Source of the DNA: Candidatus Avelusimicrobium bubulum
GTDB taxonomy: Bacteria; Elusimicrobiota; Elusimicrobia; Elusimicrobiales; Elusimicrobiaceae
Reading direction: 5' to 3'
Length of the DNA: 39,300 nt
Assembly: GCA_902798835.1 (NCBI GenBank)
Contig: CADBYN010000007.1
Span: 1 to 39,300, forward strand
How positions within the stretch are numbered: position 1 is the first letter of the stretch; each line of letters opens with the position of its first letter. Shown here piece after piece: positions 2,645 to 4,359 of this stretch. The position numbers and the translations under genes were made by a program. The notes under the pieces are model-generated. The model did not search any database, was not told the DNA's origin, and saw nothing but the letters and a program-made list of their open reading frames with translations.

Positions 2645-2869
2645 ATGGCAGAAAAAGTATTGAAAGTAGGCATGGACCGCGAAGACGGTTTCTTGTACTA
2701 CATTGATAAAGATGGTGATATTGCTCGCGTGCAAATGGCCCGCGGTGGCAAAAAAGGTGGCAAACCGAAAAAAGTAGAAAAAACGGGTATTAAAAAAGAA
2801 AAAGGATATCTCTATTTCTTAGATAAGAAAGGTGATATCTCCCGCGCCAAAATGGTAAACGCCAAATAA
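2645..2869 (+). CDS. Small basic protein with duplicated GYLYFLDKxGDI motif
   Basis: This is a 74-residue protein of unknown function. It consists of two copies of a 26-residue unit, residues 7-32 and 46-71, identical at 13 of 26 positions. The shared core is G-(F/Y)-L-Y-(Y/F)-(I/L)-D-K-x-G-D-I-x-R-x-x-M. A Gly/Lys linker (about 34-43) joins the copies. There is no signal peptide or membrane segment, so it is probably cytoplasmic, and the lysine-rich linker could contact nucleic acid. The gene has its own promoter, a near-perfect Shine-Dalgarno sequence (AAAGGAGGA, 8 nt before ATG) and a strong terminator, which together suggest high expression as a single-gene transcript. I recall similar short proteins with one such motif in other bacteria but cannot name a characterised family. 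The gene call is strong; function is unknown. Confidence 0.85.
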   Translation: MAEKVLKVGMDREDGFLYYIDKDGDIARVQMARGGKKGGKPKKVEKTGIKKEKGYLYFLDKKGDISRAKMVNAK

Positions 2870-2930: not shown

Positions 2931-3443
2931 TTAACAAACGCCACACAATTCATTTTCATCATTACTCACATCTTGTAAACCAAGCAGTTCCGCATAATTA
3001 TATTTAGGATCAATAGTAGAACAGCCGTCTCCTTGGCGCACTACAAATCGACCGTCATTTAAGTAACAGACACTCACATCCACATCCCAGCTTTGCACAT
3101 AACCTTTCATTTCATTTCCATACTCATCGTGTCCAAATCCATAATAAAAATGCTCAGTAAATAGCCTGTAATCGTCTTGATTATGTGGATCTGTATTAGG
3201 CACAATAACGTCTAATTCATCTAGTTTACATCTTTCTCCTTTGCGCAGTACACATATTTCATAGGCATCTGCCAAAGTTTTTAAAGTAGATATACCTTCC
3301 ATCATTCGGCTTTTGGCTACCGCTTTTTGATATTGCGGCAGAGCAATTGCCGCCAAAATGCCAATGATTAAAACAACCACTAAGAGTTCAATTAAAGTGA
3401 ACCCTTTTTTGTTTATACGGCCTTTAAAACAACTTTTTTTCAT
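2931..3443 (-). CDS. Type IV pilin-like protein (prepilin, type III signal)
   Basis: This is a 170-residue prepilin. The leader [14 protein letters not shown] ends in Gly, followed by [20 protein letters not shown], the canonical N-methylated hydrophobic helix with Glu at +5, and then LPQYQKAV. This is the substrate signature of prepilin peptidase, so the protein is expected to be processed and assembled into a type IV pilus or pseudopilus at the inner membrane. The C-terminal globular part has five cysteines after the leader (including one near residue 81 and the terminal CGVC) that could form disulfides. I chose the ATG at 3443: a G-rich AGGGGGG lies upstream and the promoter at 3490-3518 fits. 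A longer reading frame upstream would run through a poly-A tract and the promoter. The N-terminus nearly matches the second pilin at 27536-28090, while the rest differs. No other pilus gene is nearby. Confidence 0.9.
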
Positions 3444-3461
3444 AACAGGTACCCCCCTATT

Positions 3462-3518
3462 TATACAAAAATACTTTTGTATATAGCCCATTATAAGAAA
3501 AAAAAAAAAACGATTCAA
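3462..3518 (-). promoter_or_regulatory. Pilin promoter with leader hairpin
   Basis: On the minus strand TTGAAT (3518-3513) and TATAAT (3495-3490) are 17 bp apart; the spacer contains a 13-nt T-run. Between the predicted start of transcription and the ATG lies a perfect inverted repeat, arms 3462-3470 and 3475-3483 with a 4-nt loop, which may be an operator or mRNA-stabilising hairpin. The homopolymer in the spacer could allow slippage-based variation. Confidence 0.6.
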
Positions 3519-3566
3519 GCGGTATTTTCTTTTTGGCAAAAAAACACAAATATTAAATACCCCCCC

Positions 3567-3594
3567 TTGAAATTTTTGCATTTATGCTTATACT
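3567..3594 (+). promoter_or_regulatory. Upstream promoter of the hpf leader
   Basis: TTGAAA (3567-3572) and TATACT (3589-3594) are 16 bp apart, on the strand of hpf. Transcription would begin near 3601, giving a leader of about 210 nt before hpf. The promoter is divergent from the pilin promoter at 3490-3518. Confidence 0.5.
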
Positions 3595-3600
3595 ATGAGT

Positions 3601-3729
3601 ATCCGCTGGGTAGGAGGGATAACCAAAGAACGCTGATTTTTACTTACCGCCCTTTGCTTGCGCCTGATTTCCAAGCGTAAGCAAGGGCAGCGTTTTGTGT
3701 CGGAAGATCGTACGCGCAAGCGCGCGTAT
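3601..3729 (+). ncRNA. Structured leader or small RNA upstream of hpf (unidentified)
   Basis: No gene is visible on either strand between 3519 and 3810. Most of that space folds well. A 13-bp hairpin pairs 3649-3662 with 3676-3688, with one bulge and one G-U pair. It is enclosed by a 6-bp stem (3629-3634 with 3689-3694) that leaves an asymmetric internal loop. A second perfect 7-bp hairpin follows (3711-3717 with 3722-3728, loop AAGC). The promoter at 3567-3594 precedes it and a second promoter-like pair (3740-3769) follows. It could be the regulatory leader of hpf or an independent small RNA. I could not match it to 6S, tmRNA, SRP RNA or a riboswitch I know, and there is no U-run to mark a 3' end. 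Confidence 0.35.
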
Positions 3730-3739
3730 ATACAAATAG

Positions 3740-3769
3740 TTGACAGCCGCCCCCGGATAATGATTTAAT
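3740..3769 (+). promoter_or_regulatory. Promoter-proximal candidate promoter of hpf
   Basis: A perfect -35 TTGACA (3740-3745) and TTTAAT (3764-3769) are separated by 18 bp, placing a start near 3776 and a 35-nt leader before the hpf ATG. Confidence 0.45.
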
Positions 3770-3810
3770 GAATATACGGGGTTTTCTCGTAAATATTCTT
3801 GGAGGACATT

Positions 3811-4359
3811 ATGGACATTAAAATTACGGCCAAAAACATTAAACTCACACCGGCCATTAGAGAATTTATTAATACGCGCGTAAGCAAAGTGGAAAACTTC
3901 TTTGACAATATCGTTTCTGCCCAGGTGCTTATTTCCGTAGAGAAAAAAATCAACCAACGCGCGGAAATCATCTTGCATACCGGCGCCAAAACAACCATTA
4001 ACGCCAGCGCCGTAGAAAGCAATTTGTACAAAGCTATTGATGCCGCGGCCGTCAAAGCCGAAGCGCAGGCCAAAAAAATTAAAAACAAAGCTAAAGCACG
4101 CAAAATCTCTAAAAAATCTGTAAAAACTTTAGAGATGGAACCGTTTGCCGAAGTAATGTTGCCGCAAAACGACGTAAAATTCTCCGTCATTAAACAAGTA
4201 GAAGTAACCCCCATGAACCCGGAAGATGCCGCCTACGAAATGGAACGATTAGGTTATTCCTTCTGGATGTTCTTGGATGAAGGTTCCAAACAAATCAACC
4301 TCATCTTCAAACGTTTAGACGGAACTTACGGTTTAATTAAACCCATTAAGAAAAAATAA
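3811..4359 (+). CDS. hpf: Ribosome hibernation promoting factor, long form (HPF)
   Basis: Long HPF binds the 30S decoding region and dimerises 70S ribosomes into inactive 100S particles in stationary phase or stress. The 182-residue product has an S30AE/YfiA domain (about 1-100, beginning MDIKITAKNIKLTPAIREF). A lysine-rich linker follows (about 90-115). The C-terminal dimerisation domain (about 125-180) carries the typical run from KQVEVTPMNPEDAAYEMERL to KRLDGTYGLIKP. The ATG at 3811 is chosen because GGAGG at 3801-3805 is correctly spaced; a TTG at 3799 overlaps that site and is unlikely. hpf is followed after 17 nt by hprK, an arrangement that recalls the hpf/rapZ/PTS clusters of proteobacterial rpoN loci, but rpoN is not here. 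Confidence 0.95.
   Translation: MDIKITAKNIKLTPAIREFINTRVSKVENFFDNIVSAQVLISVEKKINQRAEIILHTGAKTTINASAVESNLYKAIDAAAVKAEAQAKKIKNKAKARKISKKSVKTLEMEPFAEVMLPQNDVKFSVIKQVEVTPMNPEDAAYEMERLGYSFWMFLDEGSKQINLIFKRLDGTYGLIKPIKKK

Follow-up and report, generated by a model that had tools for sequence, protein, structure and literature searches.

The hpf locus and its upstream region

Within the window, the 39,300-nt stretch analyzed here (part of a 65-contig assembly totaling 1.35 Mb), hpf is followed on its 3' side by hprK, rapZ and PTS genes; these were confirmed by Pfam, bearing out the gene order hpf-hprK-rapZ-PTS proposed in the initial annotation. The closest named relatives of this hpf come from rumen and gut assemblies labeled Elusimicrobium sp. 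or Elusimicrobiaceae. Six open reading frames (ORFs) of at least 20 amino acids overlap positions 3590–3800 by mechanical count, hpf itself among them; none of the others was convincing, in agreement with the earlier view that the region between the two promoters holds no plausible ORF. Read 5' to 3', a distal promoter (P1), a GGAGG, a conserved segment, a strong hairpin with a T-run, a GC palindrome, the hpf promoter (P2), a small hairpin and a Shine-Dalgarno sequence precede hpf:

3567–3594, plus strand: distal promoter P1, TTGAAA (3567–3572), 16 nt, TATACT (3589–3594)
3601–3697, plus strand: predicted short RNA of ~97 nt (alignment A2 and covariation), its start placed 7 nt past the -10 box and its 3' end at the T-run
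3613–3617, plus strand: GGAGG, Shine-Dalgarno-like, with no start codon in range (counts in P1 regions)
3623–3636, plus strand: conserved segment CCAAAGAACGCTGA, consensus YCAAAGAAnnCU (alignment A3, 38 loci)
3649–3697, plus strand: putative intrinsic terminator, hairpin 3649–3688 then GCGTTTTG (TTTTG) (covariation; shuffles in nine of nine near loci)
3711–3728, no strand assigned: GC palindrome TACGCGCAAGCGCGCGTA beside P2
3740–3769, plus strand: proximal hpf promoter P2, TTGACA (3740–3745), 18 nt, TTTAAT (3764–3769)
3775–3791, plus strand: small hairpin TACGGGGTTTTCTCGTA in the hpf 5'UTR, resembling that of most relatives by eye
3811–4359, plus strand: hpf (PF02482 and PF16321), ATG at 3811, Shine-Dalgarno GGAGG at 3801–3805

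Farther upstream, a 74-amino-acid Lys/Gly-rich ORF with two similar halves (2645–2869, plus strand) is followed by a terminator at 2886–2911. It gave no match in Pfam, and its end recurs upstream of hpf in several relatives. Between this terminator and P1 lies a type IV pilin-like gene with an N_methyl domain (2931–3443, minus strand); a gene end resembling it by sequence was observed upstream of hpf in two other genomes (G004 and G006).

Conservation of the promoters and the 5' module

Both promoters, TTGAAA/TATACT and TTGACA/TTTAAT, were found where the initial annotation had placed them. A consensus scan returned five promoter-like sites against 6.2 expected and is therefore no promoter evidence by itself; the evidence is conservation. 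A P2-like pair was present in all 74 distinct hpf upstream regions and a P1-like pair in 55 of them, P1 being picked by pattern and shared ancestry uncorrected in this count.

The GGAGG lies ~12 nt from the predicted RNA start. Because the loci of alignment A3 were chosen by a GGAG...AAA pattern, as were the 38 in our start-codon survey, we took the GGAGG counts from the 74-region survey instead. There, GGAGG lay at most 40 nt from the P1 -10 box in 41 of the 55 P1 regions, compared with 3.2% in shuffles that were mononucleotide only, and its offset was 17–20 nt in 31 of the 41. Alignment A3 comprises 38 loci with P1 and the 5' module; L067 and the window were added by hand, L094 (near-identical to L093) and L117 (a chance pattern match) were omitted, and L133–L135, which are not Elusimicrobiota, were unused. 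Across A3, the AAA of the segment after GGAGG is invariant.

Ten P1 regions, including Candidatus Avelusimicrobium (L110), lack GGAG and have another conserved block in its place. We observed a nearly invariant GC-rich block, GTCCGCGACGCGCCGnCACCGGCCCGCGGC, replacing the GGAGG module after P1 in L105, L108, L110, L111, L124 and L132, a group that includes Candidatus Avelusimicrobium; it also occurs in G001, G008, G016, G020 and G034, and sits 100–130 nt upstream of the hpf P2. The P1 leader also has a third form (L106, L107, L112 and L039), in which GGAGG is followed by a CCCTGCCAnYGG-like block with no start codon nearby.

We then followed the element across genomes with search models; two of these, R1 and R2, recover species that had gone into building them. 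R2 was run against 61 genomes, 37 of the genus and 24 of the sister family, and gave 23 matches at E < 1e-7, in 22 of the 37 genus genomes and none of the 24 sister-family genomes; because most of the sequences behind R2 came from these very species, the matches speak for uniqueness and not for independent discovery. All but one adjoin hpf on the same contig (22 of 23); the remaining match (G012:C4) lies at a contig end and corresponds to a truncated copy in which the hpf contig stops. Weaker R2 matches were rejected as further genomic copies, as they mostly cover the promoter end only, with the proviso that strict filters may lose weak ones. A model built from 29 loci outside the near clade recovered all nine near loci in place, at E values from 1.3e-12 to 0.0092, and its best other match had an E value of 0.63. 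The RNA part of this model alone found L067 clearly (4.8e-5) and the window marginally (0.028) and missed the other near loci, so much of the model's signal is promoter. The comparison shows that many of the genus's species conserve P1 and the 5' module (GGAGG, YCAAAGAAnnCU), in single copy and beside hpf.

By eye, the module was absent from 14 sister-family sequences upstream of hpf. In that family a GC hairpin followed by TGTTTTA often comes soon after the hpf promoter (L043–L048, L053, L054 and L056), possibly another terminator-like hpf leader.

The terminator hairpin and neighboring structures

The leader region has a predicted folding energy of -62.6 kcal/mol, which 2 of 200 shuffles equaled (z -3.5), and the opposite strand folds nearly equally well (z -3.1; none of 200 shuffles). 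Within the fold, the 13-bp hairpin of the initial annotation was recovered, and its stem covaries. In A2, an alignment of the nine loci of the window's clade (the window, L062–L068 and L081), the stem was paired in 87.3% of cells and none of 500 shuffles was as high; related sequences may beat shuffles without structure, and the number of doubly changed pairs is the sturdier measure. By that measure, 7 of 14 pairs were changed on both sides, which none of 500 shuffles reached, and structures shifted by 1–3 columns had only one or two such pairs.

This hairpin is best read from its sequence as an intrinsic terminator. When hairpin and T-run were scored against 60 dinucleotide shuffles of each locus's own segment, none of the 60 was as strong in any of the nine near loci; a stable GC-rich hairpin with a U-tract, beyond chance, is hence found in the window and its eight near relatives. 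The same scan was notable in one of the 29 remoter loci (L070; 2 of 60 shuffles), and L101 received no significance from the scorer, though a hairpin and T-run are visible there by eye. In the window itself, two basal stem pairs are lost and the U-tract is short (UUUU), so this terminator may be weaker than those of the relatives. Six R1 matches away from hpf were inspected, and they resemble ordinary terminators behind ORFs in other genomes. We also observed a self-complementary GCTAGC in the hairpin loop of six of the nine near loci (L063, L064, L065, L066, L068 and L081; absent from the window, L062 and L067), constant against a varying stem; it could conceivably form a kissing dimer.

The initial annotation had nested the hairpin in a 6-bp stem with an asymmetric loop. 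This stem, AACGCU/AGCGUU, pairs perfectly in the window, is extended to 7 bp by the fold prediction and is drawn by RNAalifold, but it was matched by shuffles (doubly changed pairs in 190 of 500, covariation score in 156 of 500); it stands as a prediction for the window, and covariation among relatives lends it no support. The second, GC-rich hairpin was likewise predicted, but its membership in the same RNA was not supported: it also lies beside P2 in four genomes in which no P1 was detected (G004, G006, G031 and G032), and we therefore assign it to the hpf promoter. As the palindrome has one exact copy in the genome, a repeated operator was ruled out. Its purines and pyrimidines nearly alternate, it lies directly 5' of the P2 -35 box, and its length varies among relatives; an operator is one possible role, a tract prone to form Z-DNA another.

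Searches for known RNAs agreed with the statement that the region matches no known family. No Rfam family reached its gathering score in the window, and relaxing the threshold to E <= 10 over 3450–3850 gave one meaningless match on the opposite strand. 6S RNA (RF00013) was found in none of 41 genomes and in 5 of 14 control genomes, and identity of the element with tRNA or tmRNA was tested and rejected.

Readings of the P1 transcript

The initial annotation had offered a regulatory leader or a separate small RNA, and these proved to be the right pair of alternatives; for the sensing of a nutrient signal, which it had also suggested, we found nothing in support. Our own proposal, to which we give about an even chance, is that the ~97-nt RNA is an attenuated, that is, prematurely terminated, hpf leader acting in cis. 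The elements stand in the order expected of one, with a terminator between promoter and gene (P1, terminator, hpf), but P2 lies between the terminator and hpf.

According to this proposal, the hpf-hprK-rapZ-PTS run would have P1 as an additional, more distant promoter. We infer that P1 is transcribed from the predicted start and that its transcript opens with a GGAGG, potentially a 30S binding site, that starts no protein and is followed by YCAAAGAAnnCU. As most relatives retain P1 and the module but show no clear terminator, P1 transcription in them is expected to run on into hpf and give a long 5' leader; that the remoter loci keep both mostly without a terminator also suggests a leader function independent of termination. 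The window's clade would have added a strong terminator (3649–3697) before P2, leaving the ~97-nt RNA, and would make hpf mainly from P2, plus a possibly regulated fraction of P1 transcripts that read through. Since hpf keeps P2 downstream of the terminator, termination need not affect its expression.

The main rival is a stand-alone, trans-acting sRNA of ~97 nt that merely neighbors hpf and uses YCAAAGAAnnCU as its seed. It would account for an RNA with its own promoter and terminator next to a gene with a promoter of its own, and for a conserved stretch that several near-clade folds leave mostly unpaired, but not for a location invariably beside hpf or for the missing terminator in most remoter relatives. 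The conserved segment pairs no better with the species' own hpf 5'UTR than with those of other species (p 0.71), and such pairing was rejected. Hfq (PF17209) was found in none of 41 genomes (controls, 5 of 14), making a classic trans-acting sRNA less likely, and CsrA (PF02599) was also found in none of the 41 (controls, 3 of 14). On balance, we regard this rival as possible but somewhat unlikely. The same CsrA result ruled out a CsrA site at the GGA, and the indirect repression by CsrA reported for E. coli raiA (PMC10746276) cannot apply here.

Alternatively, there may be no regulation: P1 would simply be an additional promoter, and the terminator an insulator shielding P2 from transcription from P1 or upstream. 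That the terminator sits shortly before P2 and has its origin in a single clade, and that similarly built terminators end ordinary genes, would suit this account; the GGAGG and YCAAAGAAnnCU conserved in terminator-less loci are left unexplained by it, and we consider it doubtful.

We judged it very improbable that the GGAGG serves as Shine-Dalgarno sequence for a very short leader peptide. A frame NNY AAA GAA NNC stop is frequent, and L062 has ATG ACC AAA GAA TGC TAA, but an ATG, GTG or TTG lies 4–12 nt 3' of the GGAGG in just 3 of 41 regions, and we rejected this role; five near loci have an ATG 1 nt after GGAGG, four of these in a frame that hits a stop immediately, and an in-frame start anywhere in the transcript occurs in only 3 of 38 loci.

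A divergent raiA-motif RNA (ModT) is barely credible: it shares the neighborhood, is non-coding and has its own promoter upstream of the hpf homolog raiA, which follows modT in 66% of cases as reported in PMC11706538, but the element has ~97 nt and one hairpin against 209 model positions (about half the length), was found here in only one genus of Elusimicrobiota and has no RF03072 match in its region, so that membership was refuted at the sensitivity of RF03072, for which none of the 41 genomes held a match over cut-off (the sole weak one, 23 bits at G009:C128, is on a contig other than that of hpf) and the 14 control genomes likewise none, leaving that sensitivity unvouched.

Returning to the attenuated leader, we compared it with known systems. 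It resembles the B. subtilis vmlR leader, as described in PMC9226507, in its promoter, short leader and intrinsic terminator before a translation-related gene, and differs from vmlR attenuation as given there in having no demonstrable antiterminator or translated leader ORF, and a second promoter after the terminator. The purine run pairs with the 5' arm of the terminator in some predicted folds only, and because the run is invariant, covariation cannot test an antiterminator. The nearest published analog known to us is the STAB-SD of cry3A, a start-less Shine-Dalgarno sequence at the mRNA 5' end where, according to PMC4113751, 30S binding blocks RNase J1 in Bacillus. Both have an SD-like sequence near the (here predicted) 5' end that initiates no translation, but 30S binding is conjectural here and RNase J (TIGR00649) was over cut-off in none of the 41 genomes, with no match whatever in G000, so the STAB-SD mechanism does not hold as described. 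A version of the leader that senses 30S subunits directly, with plentiful free 30S covering GGAGG so that the terminator forms, and scarce 30S letting the purine run pair with the 5' arm and transcription read through into hpf, seems to us quite improbable.

Among the papers listed by our literature searches, none dealt with this element or with such an RNA in the phylum. We conclude that the feature, probably a short terminated hpf leader, is real, apparently undescribed and of a familiar kind: a conserved, lineage-specific RNA element before a ribosome-hibernation gene. With raiA/ModT as the first, it would be the second non-coding RNA to neighbor hpf. Through its start-less Shine-Dalgarno sequence, the idea that hpf is tied to ribosome availability becomes open to test, and if 30S-sensing were true, the level of the hibernation factor would be set directly by the ribosome pool.
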